Below are positions 50,142 to 60,418 of a DNA stretch of 64,000 nt, in pieces (within the stretch, counting starts at the first letter, position 1; every line of letters begins with the position of its first letter). The translations under genes were made by a program, and so were the position numbers. The notes below the pieces were generated by a model, which was not told the DNA's origin, searched no databases, and saw only the letters and a list, made by a program, of their open reading frames with translations. The DNA is from Bacteroidia bacterium. GTDB taxonomy: Bacteria > Bacteroidota > Bacteroidia > B-17B0 > Aurantibacillaceae. The DNA is taken from contig JAEUTO010000004.1 in assembly GCA_016787785.1 (NCBI GenBank), positions 62,001 through 126,000 on the forward strand, written 5' to 3'.

Positions 50142-50786
50142 ATGAAAACAATTAGCCTTAGTATCTTTATATTCCTACTTTGTTGTAGCAAATTAAAATC
50201 CCAAAATTTATATGTTGTAACCGAAAGATTTAATACCTATCAAAGTATTAATATAATACCATTTGATTCGTTATTTATAACAAACCCATCGGGTGTTACC
50301 ACAAAATATGCTTTACCGCATTATATGCTTAACCCGGGCGCGCACGATAGCCAGTTTACAACCATAGTAAATGCTATTTACACCTTGGGTTATAAAATTA
50401 TGCCTACCAGTAACTGGGAGGGTACTTTGCAGTATTATTCCAATACAACTACCATTCCACAATATGCAACGCGTACATTGTTTTTGGGCCAACCTTGAAC
50501 AACAACCAGTAGCGAGCTGGCCGAAAAAGTGATAAATACTAGTTCAATTAAAATATACCCCAACCCTTGCGCCCAATATTTTAATCTAGAGTTTGATGCA
50601 GATTTTAAACCAATAGAATTAATGTTAATTAATACTTTGGGTTACGTGGTAAAAACAGTTAAGGTAAATCAACAAAACAAGATCGAAGTTAATATTGGTA
50701 ATTTACCAAATGGTAACTACATTATTAGATTACTTAATGATAAAGAATACTCACAAGCAATAAGCTTAATAAAAACGCAAGATTAG
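50142..50786 (+). pseudogene. T9SS cargo gene interrupted by an in-frame TGA
   Basis: The 5' part encodes a signal peptide (MKTISLSIFIFLLCCSKLKSQ) and a 97-residue domain of unknown type, ending at TGA (50496-50498). The same frame then continues without interruption through a linker (TTTSSELAEKVINTSS) into a complete type A sorting domain (IKIYPNPCAQYF ... LPNGNYIIRLLNDK) to a stop at 50784-50786. One base change to TGG (Trp) would restore a 214-residue T9SS cargo protein. As it stands, the protein loses the sorting signal and should not cross the outer membrane. The promoter is still intact, so this is either a recent mutation or a sequencing error. Confidence 0.7.
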
Positions 50787-52516: not shown

Positions 52517-54145
52517 ATGGGACAAATTTTTAAAACAAATACTATAGAATCCGTATGGCAATATCTACAACATTTAAAGATTCCTATAACCAAAAAAACA
52601 GTAAATGAAACATTACAAAGTCATCCATTTTTTCCGAGTTTATATAGTATTAGCGATTCGTTTGATAAATGGAAAATTAAAAATGTCGCTTACGAATTAA
52701 ATGAAGATCAACTCGATGAGTTGAAAACGCCATTTACTGTGTATATGAATGGGTTATCAACTGGTAAGGATTTTGTGCTAGTTACAGATGTAACAAAAGA
52801 AAATGTTTCGTTTATTAACGAAACAAAAAAAACACAAACACTAAGTCGAACTGCTTTTTTAAACCGCTGGGAAAAATTAGCTTTTATTGCCGAACCGACA
52901 AATGAAAGTGGTGAAGAAAACTATCAAAGAAATAGAAAGCAAGAACAAAAAGAATTTTGGAACAGCTTTTTGTTTTACACAGGAATTGGTTTAACTATTT
53001 TGTTTTTGCTGCTAAATTTAGTAACTACTAACGCCAACAATCTTTTGGTATTGACTCTAAGTGGTTTGCACGTAGTAGGTACTTTGTTGACATGTGCGCT
53101 CTTGACGTACGAATCAGGGAACGCCTCAGATTTTGTAAAGTCAGTTTGTAGTATGAATAAACAAACCAATTGCAACGCGGTTTTATCCAGTGAAGGGGCA
53201 AAATTATTTGGTATTAGCTGGGGAGAATACGGGCTTTTTTATTTTGCGGGAGGATTGTTTTGGCTCTTGGTTTCGCCACTTAAGTTAGATGTAAAGTTAA
53301 GTTATCTGACTCTAATAACTTTACCCGCCAGTTTGTATATTCCTTTTAGTATTTATTACCAATACAAAATTGTAAAGCATTGGTGTCCGCTTTGTTTAGC
53401 AGTACAATTAATACTGGCATTTGAATTAGTAGCGGCATTAATTAGCATGAGCTCCAACTCACATTTTTTTATTCATCTAACCAGTGGATTTACTCTGGTA
53501 GGAATAGCATGGATGATGATGGCATTAATAGTGCCAATTGGAGTCTGGTTTTATCTAAAACCACTCCGCGCAAAAGCCAATAATTATAATGATTACAAGC
53601 ACAGATACAAACGTTTGCAATATAACCCTGATTTATTTGCGGCCTTGTTGCAACAAGAAAAAAAGGCGCCGGATGGCTGGCAAACAATTGGAATTGAAGT
53701 CGGAAATCCGAATGCAACCAATGTTATTTTGAAAATTTGTAATCCTTATTGTGGCCCATGCGCAAAGGCACATAATGTATTAGAAGAGATTATAAAGCGT
53801 CATCCGGATTATAAATTGCGAATCATCTTTACGTCTAAAAACAATGAAGGAAGTTGGGGGTTTAAACCCGCCAGACATTTAATAACATTATCCAAAACAC
53901 TAACTCCAAACAAATTGCAATCGGCCTTACACGATTGGTACTCGGATGCTAAGAAGGATTTCGATCAGTTGGCGACCCGCTATCCTGTTACAGAACAATT
54001 GGCATCAGAGATAGGAGGTGAATTACTCACCCAGATGAGCGATTGGTGCGAAATAGCCGAAATCACTGGGACTCCGACACTGTACCTTAATGGGTATAAA
54101 TTGCCTCAGCAATACAGCATTAATGAATTAAAAACTATATTATAA
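52517..54145 (+). CDS. C39-like domain / VKOR / thioredoxin fusion, disulfide-forming
   Basis: A 542-residue membrane protein in three parts. Residues 1-130 resemble a C39 peptidase-like domain (LQSHPFFPSLYSISDSFDKW and TPFTVYMN...FVLVTDV) but have no catalytic Cys. Residues about 148-350 form a VKOR family domain with six membrane helices, the loop cysteines Cys211 and Cys219 (VCSMNKQTNCNAV), and the quinone-coupled CPLC at 290-293. Residues 380-542 are a thioredoxin-like domain with CNPYCGPC (Cys412/Cys415). VKOR-Trx proteins make disulfides in exported proteins using quinone. The gene is followed by GG-leader Cys-rich peptides and a C39-ABC exporter. I infer that it folds those peptides, and that the C39-like part holds their leaders. 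Confidence 0.85.
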   Translation: MGQIFKTNTIESVWQYLQHLKIPITKKTVNETLQSHPFFPSLYSISDSFDKWKIKNVAYELNEDQLDELKTPFTVYMNGLSTGKDFVLVTDVTKENVSFINETKKTQTLSRTAFLNRWEKLAFIAEPTNESGEENYQRNRKQEQKEFWNSFLFYTGIGLTILFLLLNLVTTNANNLLVLTLSGLHVVGTLLTCALLTYESGNASDFVKSVCSMNKQTNCNAVLSSEGAKLFGISWGEYGLFYFAGGLFWLLVSPLKLDVKLSYLTLITLPASLYIPFSIYYQYKIVKHWCPLCLAVQLILAFELVAALISMSSNSHFFIHLTSGFTLVGIAWMMMALIVPIGVWFYLKPLRAKANNYNDYKHRYKRLQYNPDLFAALLQQEKKAPDGWQTIGIEVGNPNATNVILKICNPYCGPCAKAHNVLEEIIKRHPDYKLRIIFTSKNNEGSWGFKPARHLITLSKTLTPNKLQSALHDWYSDAKKDFDQLATRYPVTEQLASEIGGELLTQMSDWCEIAEITGTPTLYLNGYKLPQQYSINELKTIL

Positions 54146-54285
54146 AGATGTTTGCAAATCAGGTGTAAGTGATGGAGTACTACATTTCCGAAACCTAAAC
54201 AGGGAGAAGCTGAAAACCCTTAATCGAGTAGGCAGTAATCAACTAAAGTTTTTATCAGTTTTTAATCTATAAAACTGTTTGCTAT
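53999..54285 (+). repeat. Duplicated module, copy 1 (end of VKOR gene plus peptide leader region)
   Basis: The last 49 codons of the VKOR fusion gene and the gap up to the first peptide gene. It is repeated at 55075-55361 with about 96% identity in the coding part and lower identity after it. The 58-bp block 54207-54264 occurs a third time at 55862-55921. Confidence 0.85.
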
Positions 54286-54528
54286 ATGAAAATCATATCA
54301 AAAAATGAATTAAAGAAAATTGTTGGGGGAAATGCCGCAGTGCATTGCGAACGAAGAATTGGTGGAAACGACGATAATGGAAATCCACCTCCTCCAGGAT
54401 ACCAAATTGGACGTTGCTGGTGTATTGGCGGTGGAGCTCCATGTGATGATGTAAGTTGGCTAGAAGGTGGTTGGTGCACTGTGCCTATGTCTAATTGCAG
54501 TACTGGAGCCAACGATGTTTACATCTAG
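54286..54528 (+). CDS. Double-glycine leader Cys-rich peptide precursor 1
   Basis: An 80-residue precursor. The leader MKIISKNELKKIVGG (15 residues) ends in the Gly-Gly motif cut by C39 peptidases. The mature part is about 65 residues with six cysteines (HC, RCWC, PC, WC, NC), a PPPP stretch and many Gly, so it should be a small disulfide-rich secreted peptide. It is followed by diverged relatives and lies between the VKOR fusion and the C39-ABC transporter, which together support processing, export and oxidation. Its activity (bacteriocin, signal or other) is not known, and no modifying enzyme other than VKOR is seen. A frameshifted copy with about half the residues identical is at 55945. 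Confidence 0.8.
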   Translation: MKIISKNELKKIVGGNAAVHCERRIGGNDDNGNPPPPGYQIGRCWCIGGGAPCDDVSWLEGGWCTVPMSNCSTGANDVYI

Positions 54529-54578
54529 ACTTAATAAATTAATTAGTCAGAAATATTAAATAAGCTTTTGAAAGCTTT

Positions 54579-54665
54579 TGATGTATAGAATTGTTATTTA
54601 CAAAGCTAATTATAAATGGTAATACGATGATGGAAAAAATGAAAAGCATTATTAGAGGCTAAATC
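54579..54665 (+). pseudogene. Probable decayed peptide-precursor remnant
   Basis: The stretch GATGTATAGAATTGTTATTT (from 54579) matches the DNA just before precursor 2 at about 19 of 22 positions. It is followed by a short frame ending MEKMKSIIRG and a stop, resembling the NKMKNIIGG leader end with Gly-Gly changed to Arg-Gly. No mature part is recognisable. Confidence 0.35.
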
Positions 54666-54881
54666 GTATAGCGAGCAGCGAATATTTCATTTGTAAGATT
54701 TAATGCTTATGTTAGTGACAATGAAAGAAGGTCAGTTATTGCGGTGGAATTTGCTTTCATTTGATTGGCGATACTGCAAACAATGTTATAACGATAGTGA
54801 AAATTGAAGTTTCGTTGTTATAAGTTGTACCACTTGTATTTTAATTAAATCTTCGGGGGTACTTTATCATTAAATAAGACA

Positions 54882-54965
54882 TATGAAAAAGATAGCAAAA
54901 GAAATTTTGAAAAGTATTTTCATAGTAAAATGTTCATTACTTTCAGTGTTAAGTTTAATGATTTA
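54882..54965 (+). pseudogene. Possible second decayed peptide leader
   Basis: A 27-residue frame beginning MKKIAKEILKSI, similar in the first twelve residues to MKVIAKREL and MKIISKNELKKI of the precursors, but the Gly-Gly is missing and it stops soon after. Weakly supported. Confidence 0.25.
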
Positions 54966-55074
54966 GGGATAATATATGTTTGCCTTGGCTCAGGTTCTTT
55001 CGACTTAAAATAAAAGAATAATTTAACAGCGCTAGTGGTAGGACAATAGTTTCGACATTCGATCAATTTACATT

Positions 55075-55361
55075 TGGCATCAGAGATAGGGGGTGAATTA
55101 CTCACCCAGATGAGCGATTGGTGCGAAATAGCCGAAATCACTGGGACTCCGACACTGTATCTGAATGTGTATAAATTGCCTTAGCAATACAGCATTAATG
55201 AATTAAAAATTATATTATAAAGATGTTTGCAAACAGGTGTAAGTAATGGAGTACTACATTGCCCAAACCAAAACAGGGCCAAGCTGAAAACCCTTAACTG
55301 AGTAGGCAAAAAATCAACTAAAGTTTTTGGCAATTTTTGATGTATAAAATTGTTGTCTATC
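55075..55361 (+). repeat. Duplicated module, copy 2 (VKOR gene fragment plus leader region)
   Basis: Second copy of 53999-54285. The coding part is no longer a gene: it lacks the rest of VKOR and has a TAG where the original has CAG. It leads directly into precursor 2, so the duplicated unit was "end of VKOR gene, spacer, peptide gene". Confidence 0.85.
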
Positions 55362-55574
55362 ATGCTAAAAGAAAGTAATGCTTTTAAAGCAATTGAAAAA
55401 AACAAGATGAAAAATATTATCGGTGGAAAAGTTGCTCTTGGTTCAGGCGAAGGAACTATGTGTTGGAGTACTACTTGTCCAGATAAAAAAGATGAAAGAA
55501 GTGGTTTTGGTAATGATTGCCCTTCAGAATACTTGGTGAAAGATTGCAAATGCAATGAAGTAGTTAAGTGTTAA
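55362..55574 (+). CDS. Double-glycine leader Cys-rich peptide precursor 2
   Basis: A 70-residue precursor. The leader of 22 residues (MLKESNAFKAIEKNKMKNIIGG) ends in Gly-Gly. The mature part (about 48 residues) has six cysteines, in MCWSTTC, NDC, DCKC and VKC. It differs in sequence from precursors 1 and 3 but has the same cysteine number, leader type and duplicated upstream DNA. The ATG at 55362 gives a proper leader; an in-frame TTG 12 bases upstream is less likely. A probable small disulfide-bonded exported peptide. Confidence 0.78.
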   Translation: MLKESNAFKAIEKNKMKNIIGGKVALGSGEGTMCWSTTCPDKKDERSGFGNDCPSEYLVKDCKCNEVVKC

Positions 55575-55944
55575 TTTATTATGCTCTTGTTAGAATACAA
55601 GTGCATAGTTTTACATTAATAATTTGACGTACTAGTTTAAATGGCTACGCTTATTTATCAAAAATTCTTTAAAGTACTATAGAGTTGCCTATAGCTTATA
55701 CCTTCGGCTTATATGTAGTGAGTTAAAGTAATAGTTGTATAATGACTTTAAATGCAAAACAAGTCAGAAAAATCAAGCGTAGCCTTTTAAAGCGAAGATA
55801 TCTGACAGGATAATAGTAAGTAACAAATTGTAAAACTTCAATTTACACTTATTTCTAAAGTACAAGCCTAAAACCCTTAACGGAGTAGTCAAACAATCAA
55901 CTAAAGTTTTTGGTAGTTTTTAACACAAAAGTTACAACTACAAA
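55575..55944. other. Intergenic region with third leader block
   Basis: No gene. The part 55862-55921 is the third copy of the AAAACCCTTAAnnGAGTAG...AATCAACTAAAGTTTTT block that stands in front of precursors 1 and 2, so it probably holds the promoter or a conserved untranslated leader of precursor 3. The rest (55600-55850) shows nothing I can name. Confidence 0.5.
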
Positions 55945-56183
55945 ATGAAAGTTATAGCGAAACGTGAATTAAGCAGATTATCGGAGGTAGTGCTGCTCTT
56001 CACTGTGAATTAAGAGTCGGCGGAAATCAAGTTGAAGGAAATCCACCACCTCCGGGACAAACCATAAGTAGATCTTGGTGTATTGGTGGTGACTCGCCAT
56101 GTGACGACTTAAGTTGGCAAAAGGGTGGTTGGTGCACGGTGCCGATGGGAAATTGTATCGGAGCTCCAAGTACTAGTATTTAA
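55945..56183 (+). pseudogene. Frameshifted double-glycine peptide precursor 3
   Basis: ATG at 55945 reads MKVIAKREL and then leaves the frame. One missing base near 55971 separates it from the frame that continues KQIIGGSAALHCELRVGG ... NPPPPG ... WCIGGDSPCDDLSWQKGGWCTVPMGNC ... to the stop at 56181-56183. With one A restored the product is a 79-residue precursor very similar to precursor 1, with five of its six cysteines (RCWC is RSWC). The mature part is intact, so the inactivation is recent or a sequencing error. Confidence 0.75.
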
Positions 56184-56186
56184 TCA

Positions 56187-56222
56187 ATCAACAAGGAGAT
56201 TTAATTACATCTCCTTGTTGAT
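56187..56222 (+). terminator. Strong hairpin between peptide array and transporter
   Basis: Arms of 14 bp (ATCAACAAGGAGAT and ATCTCCTTGTTGAT) with an 8-nt loop, three bases after precursor 3. There is no T-run after it on the plus strand, so it may act as an attenuator or RNA-stabilising element rather than a full terminator, allowing more peptide than transporter to be made. Confidence 0.55.
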
Positions 56223-56246
56223 CTTAAAATAAAAAAGCGATTACTC

Positions 56247-58448
56247 TTGAAAAATTTTTATCACTACCGCCAGCACGATGCCATGGACTGTGGCCCTACG
56301 TGTATTAAAATGATAGCCAGTTATTATGGTAAAACATTTAGTATCGATAAACTACGACAAGCCTCGCAATACAGCAAGGAAGGGGTATCTTTATTAGGTA
56401 TTGCAGAAGCCGCCGAAAAATTTGGATTTCTAACCATGGCAGTTGAGCTATCGTTGCAACAGTTGGTTAACGAGGTAACACTACCCGCTATTTTACATTG
56501 GAATCAAAATCACTTTGTAGTAGTATATAAAGCAGATAAACAAAAAATTACGATTGCTGACCCATCCGAAAAAGGAATTGTTAAACTCACTAAAGCAGAG
56601 TTTTTAAAGCATTGGCAATTTAAGAATCAAACAACAAACGAAGCTGTACCCCTAGGCATTGCATTATTATTGGAACCCACAGCACAGTTTGAGAATCAGG
56701 AAAACGATGCATCGAATAAAGTAGGATGGAATTTATTACTGCATCAGCTCTTGAAACAGAAACGATTAATTGTTCAATTGTTTTTTGGGTTATTGCTCGG
56801 AAGTATTTTGCAATTAATTTTTCCGTTTCTCACTAAAAGTATTGTTGATACGGGAATTGATATGCAAAACATTCCTTTCCTCTACATCATACTGTTGGCG
56901 CAGTCAATGCTGATTTTGAGCCGGACAGTTGTTGATTTTATTCGCACGAGACTTTTATTGTACATTAGCACATCTATCAATTTTTCATTATTGTCTTCGT
57001 TTTGGATAAAGCTGATGAAATTACCCATTAGTTACTTTGATACAAAGAAGACGGGCGATATACAACAGCGTTTAAGTGATCAAAAGCGAATTGAAAGTTT
57101 TTTAACAGGCTCGGCGTTATCTACTTTTTTTTCGCTGTTTAATCTTATTTTATTTTCTGGTATTTTATTGTATTACAACAGCATTGTTTTTGTGATTTTT
57201 ATGCTCGGCAGTGTGTGCTACTTAATTTGGATTAAACTTTTTTTTAGATTTAGGAGAACGATGGATTATGAACGATTTACTATTGCATCCAAAGAAAATA
57301 CAGCCACTATGCAACTTATTTACGGAATGCAAGAAATTAAGTTAAATAACAGTGAGCAATTACGAAGATGGGAATGGGAGGAATTGCAAGCGGGGTTGTT
57401 TAAACTTCAATTCAGGAGTTTAACATTAAGTCAATGGCAGCAAGCAGGAGCTTTTTTTATTAATGAGGGTAAAAATATTTTAATTACGTTTTTTGTTTCG
57501 CGGGCTGTTATTACTGGGCAGTTATCATTAGGTGAAATGTTAGCCGTTCAGTATATAATAGGTCAGGTAAATTCGCCGGTTGAGCAATTGGTGGGTTTTT
57601 CGCAACAGTTTCAAGATGCTAAACTTTCCTTAGAGCGCTTAAACGAAATTTATGAAGTAGAAGATGAAGAGCCTGTAAATAGAGAGTTTGTAAAATTATT
57701 GCCTAGTTCAAAAAGTATTAGTTTAGAAAACGTATCATTCACCTATCCGGGCGCTGGCAATGAGCCTGTTTTAGAAAACGTGTATTTACAAATACCTGAG
57801 GGCAAAGTAACAGCGATTGTAGGGATGAGTGGCAGTGGAAAAACAACATTATTAAAGTTATTATTAAAGTTTTATGAAAATTATAAAGGCACAATTAAAC
57901 TCGGCGAAACAAGTCTTCAGAATATAGGCGCAAAAAATTGGCGAAGTCATTGTGGCAGCGTTATGCAAGATGGATATATTTTTAATGATAGTATCGCTAA
58001 AAACATTGCTGTAAGCGATCTTGTACCCAACTACACACGTTTGTATGAAGCGGCAAGAATAGCAAACATTCAGGATTTTATAGAGGCACTCCCTTTAGGT
58101 TATGAGACAAAAATAGGAGCTGAAGGAAATGGTATAAGTGCGGGGCAACGTCAACGTATTTTAATGGCACGTGCTATTTATAAAAACCCATCTTTTTTGT
58201 TTTTAGATGAAGCTACTAATGCTTTGGATGCTAATAATGAGAAAATGATTTTAGAAAATTTACAGCATTTTTTCAAAAATCGAACTGTTATTGTAATAGC
58301 ACACCGTCTAAGCACCGTAAGAAACGCAGATTTAATTATTGTACTTGATAAAGGTAAAGTTATCGAGAGTGGAAATCATCATACACTTGCGCAGTTAAAA
58401 GGAAAATATTACGAGTTGGTTAAGAATCAGTTAGAAATGGGAAATTAG
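56247..58448 (+). CDS. C39-peptidase ABC exporter (PCAT) for double-glycine peptides
   Basis: A 733-residue protein with three domains: a C39 cysteine peptidase (Cys15 in DAMDCGPTC, His89 in QNHFVVVY, Asp105 in IADP), six membrane helices (about 170-440), and an ATPase (Walker A GMSGSGKTT near 525, signature ISAGQRQR near 632, Walker B FLFLDEAT near 650, H-loop AHRLS). It cuts the leader after Gly-Gly and exports the peptide. The start is TTG at 56247, 25 bp after the hairpin. The catalytic residues are complete, in contrast to the C39-like domain of the VKOR fusion. A HlyD-like adaptor follows, and the peptide precursors lie directly upstream. Confidence 0.92.
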   Translation: MKNFYHYRQHDAMDCGPTCIKMIASYYGKTFSIDKLRQASQYSKEGVSLLGIAEAAEKFGFLTMAVELSLQQLVNEVTLPAILHWNQNHFVVVYKADKQKITIADPSEKGIVKLTKAEFLKHWQFKNQTTNEAVPLGIALLLEPTAQFENQENDASNKVGWNLLLHQLLKQKRLIVQLFFGLLLGSILQLIFPFLTKSIVDTGIDMQNIPFLYIILLAQSMLILSRTVVDFIRTRLLLYISTSINFSLLSSFWIKLMKLPISYFDTKKTGDIQQRLSDQKRIESFLTGSALSTFFSLFNLILFSGILLYYNSIVFVIFMLGSVCYLIWIKLFFRFRRTMDYERFTIASKENTATMQLIYGMQEIKLNNSEQLRRWEWEELQAGLFKLQFRSLTLSQWQQAGAFFINEGKNILITFFVSRAVITGQLSLGEMLAVQYIIGQVNSPVEQLVGFSQQFQDAKLSLERLNEIYEVEDEEPVNREFVKLLPSSKSISLENVSFTYPGAGNEPVLENVYLQIPEGKVTAIVGMSGSGKTTLLKLLLKFYENYKGTIKLGETSLQNIGAKNWRSHCGSVMQDGYIFNDSIAKNIAVSDLVPNYTRLYEAARIANIQDFIEALPLGYETKIGAEGNGISAGQRQRILMARAIYKNPSFLFLDEATNALDANNEKMILENLQHFFKNRTVIVIAHRLSTVRNADLIIVLDKGKVIESGNHHTLAQLKGKYYELVKNQLEMGN

Positions 58449-58463
58449 TAAAAATTGGAAATT

Positions 58464-59789
58464 ATGGGTGAAGTGAATACAGGAAATACTGGAAGTTATG
58501 AAATTGAAGACCTAAAAACGAATTTTATAGAAGTAGAAAAGAGGGAGAAATTAGCTCAGTTTATCGGTAATAATCCACCGTGGCTAATCCGTAATGGGAT
58601 GGTGTTTTTTTTGGGTTTAATTGTTTTACTGTTGGGTTCAACCTGGTTTATAACCTATCCAGACAGCGTTAAAACGCAATCATTAATCCGTGCAACAAGC
58701 CCACCAAAAGAAGTGGTGATTAAAAACGGTGGACGGATTGTTAAGCTATTAAAACGAGAGGGTGAAACTGTAAAACGAAATGAAGTCATTGCTTTTATTG
58801 AAAGCACAGCCAAACATCAGCAAGTTATCCGGCTTTATGATTTATTGGTTTTCTTAAAAGCACATTGTAGCGCCAACCGCTTAGAAGATTTGGTAAATTA
58901 TTGGGATGCACACCAGTCCGGTTTTTCGGAGTTGGGAGAATTACAAGCTCAGCACCAAAACTTTGTAAAGTCTTTGCTTAATTTTAAAAGCAACCTTTCT
59001 CAAGGATCATATTTCAAACGAAAATCAATCCTTATCAAAGATTTAAGTAACACCAAAAGATTATATACTACCCTGAAAGATCAACAGCTACTTCAACAAT
59101 TAGATTTAAAATTACAAGAAGCAAATGCAATTGTGGCTGATACTCTTCATAAAAAATCAGTTTATACAGATTTAGAATGGCGGCAGGCACAAAGCCAGTT
59201 TATCAACAAAAAGATGGCTCTACCTGTAATCCAGTCGTCATTAATTGGAAATGAGAATCAGCAAAATGCCATTCAAAAGAGTTTAATCGAGCTGGAGAAT
59301 CAAACCTATCAAGAACGAAATCTATTTATTGAAGAATTGTTTAATTACATAAATTTAATCGAAGAATGGAAGCAAAAATATATACTACAAGCACCAGCAA
59401 GCGGTAAAATTTTATATTCAGGATTTGTTAATGAAAATCAGTTTTTCTCTTCAACAAAGCCAGTCTGTTATATTACAAATGAAACACAAGTATATTTAGC
59501 GGAAGCTTATGTTCCCATTAGCTTTAGGTCAAAAGTAAGTATAGGTCAAAAAGTAAAACTAAAGTTCCCTGCTTACTCAGTTTTTGAATTTGGTACTGTT
59601 AATGGTATAATTCTAGAAATAAAGGATATTCCTCTGGATAGCGTTTACTTAGCTAAAATAGGATTGCCTGATGGGCTACTTACAAATACAAATAAAAGAA
59701 TTATGTTTAACAACGGTCTTACTGCTATTGCTGAAATTACAGTTCGGAATAGCTCATTACTTCAGAAATTAATAAATAGCAAATATTAA
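58464..59789 (+). CDS. HlyD-family membrane fusion protein
   Basis: A 441-residue periplasmic adaptor with one N-terminal membrane helix (MVFFLGLIVLLLGSTWFITY, near residues 46-65), a split lipoyl/barrel-sandwich domain (IVKLLKREGETVKRNEVIAFIES and later LQAPASGKILYSGFVNENQ), and coiled-coil hairpin helices between. It links the C39-ABC exporter to the outer membrane and gives specificity to export. The frame opens at a TTG at 58455, but ATG at 58464 is the better start. It lies 15 bp after the ABC gene, so they are an operon. No TolC-like gene is in the window. Confidence 0.88.
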   Translation: MGEVNTGNTGSYEIEDLKTNFIEVEKREKLAQFIGNNPPWLIRNGMVFFLGLIVLLLGSTWFITYPDSVKTQSLIRATSPPKEVVIKNGGRIVKLLKREGETVKRNEVIAFIESTAKHQQVIRLYDLLVFLKAHCSANRLEDLVNYWDAHQSGFSELGELQAQHQNFVKSLLNFKSNLSQGSYFKRKSILIKDLSNTKRLYTTLKDQQLLQQLDLKLQEANAIVADTLHKKSVYTDLEWRQAQSQFINKKMALPVIQSSLIGNENQQNAIQKSLIELENQTYQERNLFIEELFNYINLIEEWKQKYILQAPASGKILYSGFVNENQFFSSTKPVCYITNETQVYLAEAYVPISFRSKVSIGQKVKLKFPAYSVFEFGTVNGIILEIKDIPLDSVYLAKIGLPDGLLTNTNKRIMFNNGLTAIAEITVRNSSLLQKLINSKY

Positions 59790-59902: not shown

Positions 59903-60418
59903 GTGAATATTAACGATCTACAATACAATGTCAGTAGAGCCATAAATGTAGCTTCAAATATAAATATATATAAAGAAGCAGTTTCAGCTAATAGTAAGCA
60001 GTCTGAAATATTTATCGAGGAGTTTGAAAGAAAGTATATAGATTTTAAATTCAATCAAAATGTTATAGATCCATATGATAGTATTAATGTATATTTTAAA
60101 GAAGCTTTACCCTATGAATTAATAGCTTGGATTGAGATAAAAATGTCTAAGTTAGAAAATGTACTTTTTGTTAATAATGTAGTTTCTGATTTGTCATTTG
60201 AGGTAAGCGAAGATCAAAAACATTGGGCTACAAAACAAATATTCGAAAAGTATTTAGAGGTGATTAGTGCTATCTCTATACAAAATAACTATGTTATTTT
60301 AGATGCCAATTCAGCTAAACAACCTGTTGTAATAAGCTCAGAATTACTTAATAAGAGATATAAAAAACTCCTACCGATAAGTAACTACAATATTTTTTTT
60401 GATAATATATTTCACTAA
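59903..60418 (+). CDS. Hypothetical protein after the export operon
   Basis: A 171-residue acidic protein without a signal peptide or cysteines, starting at GTG (59903), with LPYELIAWIEIKMSKLENVLFVNNVV as its most ordered stretch. No family recognised. It lies 113 bp after the HlyD-like gene on the same strand. It could be an immunity protein or a leader-binding factor of the peptide system by position, but nothing in the sequence proves it. Confidence 0.5.
   Translation: MNINDLQYNVSRAINVASNINIYKEAVSANSKQSEIFIEEFERKYIDFKFNQNVIDPYDSINVYFKEALPYELIAWIEIKMSKLENVLFVNNVVSDLSFEVSEDQKHWATKQIFEKYLEVISAISIQNNYVILDANSAKQPVVISSELLNKRYKKLLPISNYNIFFDNIFH

Follow-up and report, generated by a model that had tools for sequence, protein, structure and literature searches.

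The closest described relatives of the system reported here are the bacteroidetocins (class IIf; Coyne et al. 2019). According to the passages of that paper cited here, four genes, encoding a protein with five transmembrane (TM) helices, a four-cysteine peptide, a thiol oxidoreductase and a C39 peptidase-containing ABC exporter (PCAT), are enough for E. coli to show toxin activity; activity is weakened when the oxidoreductase, TM or peptide gene is deleted, and migration is altered by reductant, consistent with disulfides (PMC6671954). The present locus occupies positions 52517–59789 of a 64,000-nucleotide stretch of a Bacteroidia bacterium genome (contig JAEUTO010000004.1), hereafter the window. 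As judged by the list of open reading frames (ORFs) and Pfam, it consists of a gene for a fusion of C39-like, vitamin K epoxide reductase (VKOR) and DsbA-like domains, genes for peptides with double-glycine (GG) leaders, a PCAT gene and a gene for a HlyD adaptor, all on the forward strand.

As far as bacteroidetocins are described in those passages, the window locus shares with them the phylum Bacteroidota, a GG-leader cysteine peptide, a thiol oxidoreductase, a C39-ABC exporter and the lack of an obvious immunity gene. Compared by description, it differs in its single fused C39-like/VKOR/DsbA protein, its six-cysteine peptides and its HlyD, which the cited text does not mention (PMC6671954). 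Bacteroidetocin leaders are given there as 15–16 amino acids (aa), against 15 aa in peptide 1 and 22 aa in peptide 2 of the window, and the cores as about 42–48 aa with four cysteines (at least two), against six cysteines in window cores of 65 and 48 aa. The separate thiol oxidoreductase gene of the bacteroidetocins is likened, by description, to the fused VKOR/DsbA-like domains. A separate five-TM gene was not found among the forward-strand ORFs of at least 100 aa between 52131 and 59789, which comprise only the fusion, PCAT and HlyD genes; six TM helices are predicted in the fusion. A further mark of bacteroidetocins is killing of Bacteroidales. The cited passages of three further bacteroidetocin papers (PMC8546649, PMC10352776 and PMC11195462) do not mention VKOR. 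A locus of P. massiliensis (L195), considered as a possible bacteroidetocin locus, was set aside by eye.

Other systems are comparable in part. The Synechococcus VKOR-thioredoxin protein (4nv5/3kp9) and a Bacteroidota VKOR-DsbA-like fusion without C39 (L203) have in common with the window fusion the VKOR loop cysteine pair, a CxxC motif and a C-terminal thioredoxin-fold partner, whereas the added N-terminal C39-like domain, the added TM helix and the charge pattern set the window fusion apart. Pediocin-type class IIa systems with PedC/BrcD, as outlined in the part of the source cited, also place a dedicated disulfide enzyme beside a GG-leader peptide and a PCAT (PMC13289728). These systems are Gram-positive. 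To our knowledge, they involve no VKOR and no leader-binding domain on the disulfide enzyme, and client recognition via a cleavable leader is not known to us from any bacterial folding enzyme. In the open-licence literature, to which the search was confined (subscription papers and preprints lay outside its scope), no paper was found that treats a VKOR carrying a C39 domain, or these peptides. The combination of GG-leader cysteine peptide, oxidoreductase and PCAT in Bacteroidota was known already; the new element would be a leader-recognising oxidase in a GG-leader disulfide peptide system. Judging from sequences and structural models, we consider it likely that the locus is such a system, making small, secreted, disulfide-bonded, bacteriocin-like peptides.

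Recurrence of the fusion beside cysteine-rich peptides

Matches to the fusion at E ≤ 0.001 were present in 28 of the 395 genomes of the class set, with a full or split fusion in 24 (own genome included). Among genomes of the same genus, one of 36 had a fusion match, which was weak and partial, and this patchy spread suggests that the locus was probably acquired. The class sample consisted of 27 stretches from 23 genomes of the class set. To these were added loci from named genomes, the best 80 of 116 confirmed, mostly from Pedobacter and Mucilaginibacter but also from Runella and others. The resulting 107 loci, less 9 duplicates, gave 98 non-identical loci (80 named and 18 from the class sample), the window being excluded. 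Four weak or partial matches (G192, G279, G290 and G297) were left out of the counts, and the stretches L064 and L065, from two of these genomes, were unused. As controls, 40 random 20-kb stretches were taken from genomes of the same set, own included, along with 30 hand-picked PCAT-only loci with no fusion in the stretch, one of which (L254) came from a genome with a fusion elsewhere. Fusion loci were counted on one strand within 6 kb, and PCAT-only and random stretches on both strands and up to 20 kb.

With a fixed leader pattern, a GG-leader ORF was found on the same strand within 6 kb at 65 of the 98 fusion loci, and one with at least four core cysteines at 63; in the class sample alone, ORFs of the latter kind occurred at 18 of 27 loci. 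Such peptides, whose absence near homologous VKOR genes the earlier note on this DNA, made from the letters alone, had named as contrary evidence, are thus present at most of the loci. The random stretches held five GG-leader ORFs, a single one with at least four cysteines (1/40 stretches), and the PCAT-only loci had a GG-leader ORF at 17 of 30 and one with at least four cysteines at 6. The Fisher p-values for loci with a GG-leader ORF of at least four cysteines, 1.8 × 10−12 against random stretches and 2.2 × 10−5 against PCAT-only loci, are too small, since the 98 loci are related by descent and were treated as independent. Chance GG-leader ORFs were rejected as an explanation on the basis of the two controls. 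Around the 74 fusions with more than 8 kb on both sides, a PCAT extending from C39 to ATPase was found at 57, HlyD at 54 and a TlpA-like protein at 43, against 0, 0 and 2 in the 40 control stretches; under a looser PCAT cut-off, which can catch other ABC proteins, the counts were 62/74 and 3/40.

The cysteines of the peptides are mostly even in number. The 100 unique cores with 0 to 10 cysteines are distributed as 1, 3, 2, 2, 17, 1, 55, 1, 16, 1 and 1 cases, so that among the 94 with at least three cysteines the number is even in 89 and odd in 5 (even in 28 of 30 in the class sample alone). The 11 PCAT-only ORFs with at least three cysteines include 4 even and 7 odd cases (Fisher p = 9.5 × 10−6). 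Even parity next to a dedicated oxidase is as closed disulfides predict. The earlier note had read the locus as a pathway to secreted six-cysteine peptides, and the association in 98 loci and the prevailing even parity support it in this, with the qualification that bacteroidetocins, close in plan, were known.

These observations bear on two other explanations. VKOR-DsbA pairs are general oxidases in other bacteria, and the fusion might likewise be a general envelope oxidase, or serve PCAT and HlyD, with the cysteine-rich peptides nearby by coincidence. We regard this as very unlikely: cysteine richness and even parity are far stronger at fusion loci than at PCAT-only loci, the fusion is distributed too patchily for a housekeeping enzyme, and 7 of the 8 plasmid records with a fusion match also have a PCAT match. 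It is, if anything, still more improbable that the cysteines are used otherwise, for metal binding, thioethers or glycosylation. LanB-like genes do lie near 4 of the 98 fusions, as do glycosyltransferase-like genes near 4 of 98, and P. distasonis and Spirosoma loci have LanC-like or glycosyltransferase genes; however, the ORF list and Pfam scan of the window locus revealed no such enzyme, and even parity with a dedicated oxidase suits disulfides. A plain lanthipeptide or radical SAM locus was rejected because the seven sequences scanned against Pfam (six locus frames and the next gene) include no LanB/LanC or radical SAM gene, which bears out what the earlier note had said of such enzymes.

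Several points weigh against the leader-recognising oxidase system. No same-strand GG-leader ORF was found within 6 kb at 33 of the 98 loci with the strict pattern, which misses peptides. GG peptides of 4 to 11 cysteines occur at 6 of the 30 PCAT loci without the fusion, and a six-cysteine GG peptide occurs in one random stretch (L172, 13327–13608). The named loci, being mostly from Pedobacter and Mucilaginibacter, are related. TlpA-like proteins are encoded near 54 of the 98 fusions, with signal-like N-termini in the four inspected, which suggests redox work outside the membrane too. Finally, the window copy has one frameshifted and one decayed peptide gene.

The contig of L172 also carries a fusion, some 80 kb from this peptide, which is possibly an orphan precursor served in trans. 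At L190, L196 and L198, TlpA-like proteins are encoded between the fusion and PCAT; proteins of this type could possibly be a periplasmic isomerase or reductase of the same pathway.

By sequence comparison, the cores are hypervariable, which fits weapons engaged in an arms race. A set of 96 cores, two window peptides included, fell into 42 similarity clusters, and neither window peptide joined another. NCBIfam models matched many of the peptides at E ≤ 0.1 (NF047798 60/96, TIGR04149 58/96 and NF047792, “CCPGW family putative bacteriocin”, 37/96), lanthipeptide leader models match the leaders of many related peptides at the same threshold, and Pfam gave scattered weak matches in a few related peptides, conotoxin models among them. 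Three tandem peptides of Mucilaginibacter pineti (L132, 9690–10545) have the frame C-x6-C-x5-CC-x3-C-x-C, and we take this C-C-CC-C-C order to be that of inhibitor cystine knots. The structural model of the M. pineti peptide is weak (pLDDT, the predicted local distance difference test, 71.3) and had no Protein Data Bank (PDB) match with E below 1, although several of its 16 weak PDB matches are disulfide-rich toxins; a cystine-knot identity is only a lead. The hypervariable cores, the carriage on plasmids and the parallel with bacteroidetocins make an antibacterial role, in antagonism between bacteria, the most likely one by sequence and analogy, with signalling a lesser possibility. According to annotation, four plasmids of Emticicia, Spirosoma and Hymenobacter carry the fusion, small ORFs and TlpA-like/glycosyltransferase genes, followed by PCAT and HlyD.

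The fusion protein, the peptide leaders and the proposed orientation

The fusion scores above the Pfam cut-offs for C39 (25.7 bits, cut-off 22), VKOR (55.8, cut-off 27.5) and Thioredoxin_4 (39.1, cut-off 23.2). The six cysteines C211, C219, C290, C293, C412 and C415 are invariant in alignments of 27 and 81 sequences, and PF07884 was detected at E ≤ 0.01 in 69 of the 81 aligned fusions; the PF07884 score together with invariant C211, C219, C290 and C293 places the protein in the VKOR family. In the AlphaFold2 (AF2) model, built from the 81-sequence alignment (pLDDT 90.8), the C-terminal domain is DsbA/ScsC-like (Z 18.1), with a fold matching periplasmic ScsC, BdbD and DsbA. The fusion of C39-like, VKOR and thioredoxin parts recognised in the earlier note is thus confirmed in its domains, and corrected in that the last of them is not a plain thioredoxin.

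Residues 1 to about 132 match PCAT1 (8vp5, Z 17.2), the LahT-leader complex (6mpz, 16.5) and the C39-like domain of HlyB (3zua, 14.1), and hhalign aligns the domain with the PCAT C39 domains of the same loci with a probability of 98.8. The motif DCG or CGP is absent within the first 40 aa of all 96 fusions examined; some cysteine occurs among the first 30 residues in 15 of the 96, never in such a motif. The catalytic-histidine column is Glu, Asp or Arg in 59 of 97 fusions, and the aspartate column is still Asp in 44 of 97. The lack of DCG/CGP and the replacement of the histidine mean that, by sequence and model, the domain is a predicted pseudo-peptidase, having the C39 fold with the catalytic Cys and His lost. 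The HlyB domain is alike in being a C39 fold without the catalytic Cys, but it belongs to an ABC transporter and recruits HlyA, according to the part of PMC6363468 cited, whereas that of the fusion is joined to an oxidase. The PCAT of the window does have Cys15, His89 and Asp105 (numbering from a TTG start), just as the earlier note described, and each is found in 68 of 68 PCATs of fusion loci, window included. In the own genome, PF03412 has no match besides this PCAT and the C39-like domain of the fusion.

At three loci the fusion is split into two overlapping ORFs (L046 9134–10791, L052 1771–3434 and L192 8496–10041), with the break in or close to the first membrane helices in all three; at L192, a hydrophobic stretch resembling the first helix sits in the downstream frame. 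These splits may reflect frameshift mutation, sequencing error or programmed frameshifting.

The leaders at fusion loci (94 leaders) have a consensus of about L-S/T-R/K-x-E-M-K-x-V-x-G-G. The search pattern forces hydrophobic residues at −12, −7 and −4, and these columns are not evidence; in the LahT-leader complex, as given in the part of PMC6363468 cited, the hydrophobic residues at these positions occupy the C39 groove. The basic positions are another matter: K/R is found at −10 in 28 of 30 class-sample leaders versus 6 of 19 PCAT-only leaders, and at −6 in 27 of 30 versus 3 of 19, where the PCAT-only set is the 19 of 24 leaders kept by a looser second pattern and the fusion leaders were unfiltered except for having at least three cysteines. 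Both intact window peptides have lysine at −10 and −6. This additional basic code is the best sign that something besides PCAT reads the leader, for which the C39-like domain of the fusion would be, on sequence grounds, the natural candidate.

In the AF2 model a helix at residues 136–171 precedes the VKOR helices, giving six TM helices in all by inspection, and this number places the C39-like domain, the VKOR cysteines and the DsbA-like domain on one side of the membrane. In canonical VKOR the cysteine side is the periplasm. The loops and flanks of the cysteine side contain a mean of 10.9 K+R versus 0.83 on the opposite side (78 versus 30 residues, density 0.139 versus 0.028), and in two overlapping alignments, both including the window, every row (81 of 81 and 27 of 27) has more K+R on the cysteine side. 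The helix count and the charge bias suggest active parts pointing to the cytosol, although the controls are mixed. Controls with positive TM2–TM3 or TM4–TM5 loops, as in the periplasmic type, were L200 and, by eye, the VKOR part of 4nv5 and L203. In the minimal VKORs L202 and L212 from other Bacteroidota, K/R lies mainly on the cysteine side by eye, so the charge bias is no clean test in the VKOR family. In a profile of the fusion family, the later part of the C39-like domain and the first helix align with the corresponding part of PCAT1, whose C39 is cytosolic. Near the N-terminus (approximately the first 46 residues), 75 of 81 fusions lack any 12-residue stretch with a mean hydropathy above 2.0, which the other 6 have, and no signal peptide was seen by eye on the fusion. 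Within the proposed system, sequence and model lead us to moderately favour oxidation on the cytosolic face, before export. An inverted VKOR has reportedly been described in the archaeon Aeropyrum pernix.

The opposite arrangement is a lesser though real possibility. All domains would then be periplasmic, PCAT would export and cut the peptide first, and the fusion would fold the leaderless core, with the C39-like domain holding the peptide or docking on the exporter instead of reading the leader. The bacterial VKOR-DsbA/thioredoxin partners known to us act outside the cytoplasm, and this arrangement is also favoured by the resemblance of the DsbA-like fold to periplasmic proteins, by the exported appearance of the TlpA-like neighbours and by L202 and L212, which blur the charge test. 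It would, however, require translocation of a 145-residue N-terminal domain that mostly lacks a hydrophobic stretch or visible signal peptide, the charge bias to the cysteine side holds in every aligned row, and the basic residues by which the leaders of fusion loci stand apart imply that the leader is recognised.

For the proposed system, we infer leader binding, oxidation, the order of steps, secretion and antibacterial activity as follows. Precursors would be made with a helical GG leader, which the dead C39-like domain would bind as that of HlyB binds its substrate, offering the cysteine-rich core to the DsbA-like domain. The CGPC pair of this domain would form the core disulfides and be re-oxidised by VKOR, with electrons passing to membrane quinone. 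The leader would then pass to the active C39 domain of PCAT and be cleaved after GG, and the peptide would exit by way of PCAT, HlyD and a TolC-type protein whose gene lies elsewhere; the TolC family PF02321 has 22 matches elsewhere in the own genome. In its fullest form the proposal is tentative, and we give it slightly less than even credence: an inverted VKOR-DsbA enzyme would read the GG leader through a dead C39 on the cytosolic face and knot the peptide there, in the reducing environment of the cytosol, ahead of cleavage and export by PCAT, one kind of enzyme serving dozens of unrelated disulfide frames, including the cystine-knot-like one of M. pineti. If a folding enzyme does recognise its client through the leader, one enzyme, a fixed leader and swapped cores would form a portable route to many disulfide-rich peptides, and Pedobacter, Mucilaginibacter and relatives would hold a large natural set of candidate antibacterial peptides. 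It would also make it possible to ask directly if a VKOR is able to act from the cytosolic side in bacteria, and give a function to proteins annotated in plasmid records mostly as “vitamin K epoxide reductase family protein”.

Organisation and state of the window locus

The features of the locus are listed in Table 1. Its HlyD adaptor and the single strand of the whole locus agree with the earlier note, which had further counted at least three GG precursors of five or six cysteines: two intact six-cysteine genes are present, and the third is frameshifted and forms no ORF.

Table 1. Coordinates of the locus features in the window.
Feature	Position	Strand	Basis or detail
C39-like/VKOR/DsbA-like fusion, 542 aa	52517..54145	+	Pfam, AF2, structural matches
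C39-like domain, residues 2–132	52520..52912	+	structural matches, hhalign
VKOR core, residues 182–306, loop Cys pair and WCPLC	53060..53434	+	PF07884, 55.8 bits
DsbA/ScsC-like domain, residues 379–542, CGPC	53651..54142	+	Z 18.1 to 6mhh (ScsC)
Peptide 1, 80 aa: 15-aa GG leader, 65-aa core, 6 core Cys	54286..54528	+	ORF list, NCBIfam leader model, dN/dS
Decayed fourth peptide cassette, with upstream repeat (77% over 48 nt) and leader-like frame ending ...MKSIIRG-stop	54562..54662	+	
Duplicated piece: 3′ end of the fusion gene and sequence after it	55070..55233	+	96% over 164 nt, before peptide 2
Upstream repeat common to three peptide genes	55280..55338; other copies 54206–54264, 55863–55921	+	
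Peptide 2, 70 aa: 22-aa GG leader, 48-aa core, 6 core Cys	55362..55574	+	ORF list
Peptide 3, frameshifted relative of peptide 1; GG frame 55968–56183, 5 Cys	55945..56183	+	
PCAT, C39 peptidase/ABC exporter, Cys-His-Asp	56247..58448	+	Pfam C39, ABC membrane, ATPase
HlyD-type periplasmic adaptor	58455..59789	+	PF13437, 29.3 bits, cut-off 22.2

The GG frame of peptide 3 is not in frame with the ATG at 55945. Peptide 3 matches peptide 1 at 65% over 68 residues, and the pair gives a ratio of nonsynonymous to synonymous substitution rates (dN/dS) of 0.13, at a dS of about 2, which is close to saturation; over the 68 aligned codons, 36 of the 67 differences fall at third positions. By this comparison, peptide 1 and copy 3 were coding genes under purifying selection, peptide 3 having been a real gene. 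The array has the look of a birth-and-death process among peptide cassettes. The stretch matching the duplicated fragment of the fusion gene contains one internal TAG, and matches to the upstream repeat at E ≤ 0.01 in the own genome are confined to the locus.

The window copy is partly decaying. It is unlikely that the locus has decayed to a remnant that has ceased to yield its products. The frameshift in peptide 3, the leader remnant ending at 54662 and the duplicated fusion-gene fragment favour this explanation, whereas intact genes remain for the fusion, PCAT, HlyD and two peptides, decay of single cassettes suits a birth-and-death turnover of weapons, and a sequencing error might explain the frameshift.

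When the precursors were compared with profile collections, as the earlier note had proposed, the leader of peptide 1 exceeded the cut-off of the NCBIfam bacteriocin leader model TIGR01847 (17.3, cut-off 15.7), that of peptide 2 fell below it (14.4), and the Pfam scan of the window peptides gave no match. In 390 class genomes, the only matches to peptide 1 outside the own genome were two weak ones inside ORFs of about 500 aa, judged to be chance; no relative was found in plasmids. A scan of genome contigs with a single protein confirmed no relative. A promoter and terminator scan gave no signal, with 34 promoter-like sites (35.7 expected) and 4 terminator-like sites (4.2 expected). The next gene (59903–60418) has no homologue among the compared loci at E 1 × 10−3.

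Upstream, at 50142–50786, a presumably secreted protein with a type IX-like C-terminal region seems to be split over two ORFs, perhaps another assembly frameshift. The region 20385–42485 encodes several large proteins with C-terminal regions that we take to be type IX secretion-like, as is typical of Bacteroidia.

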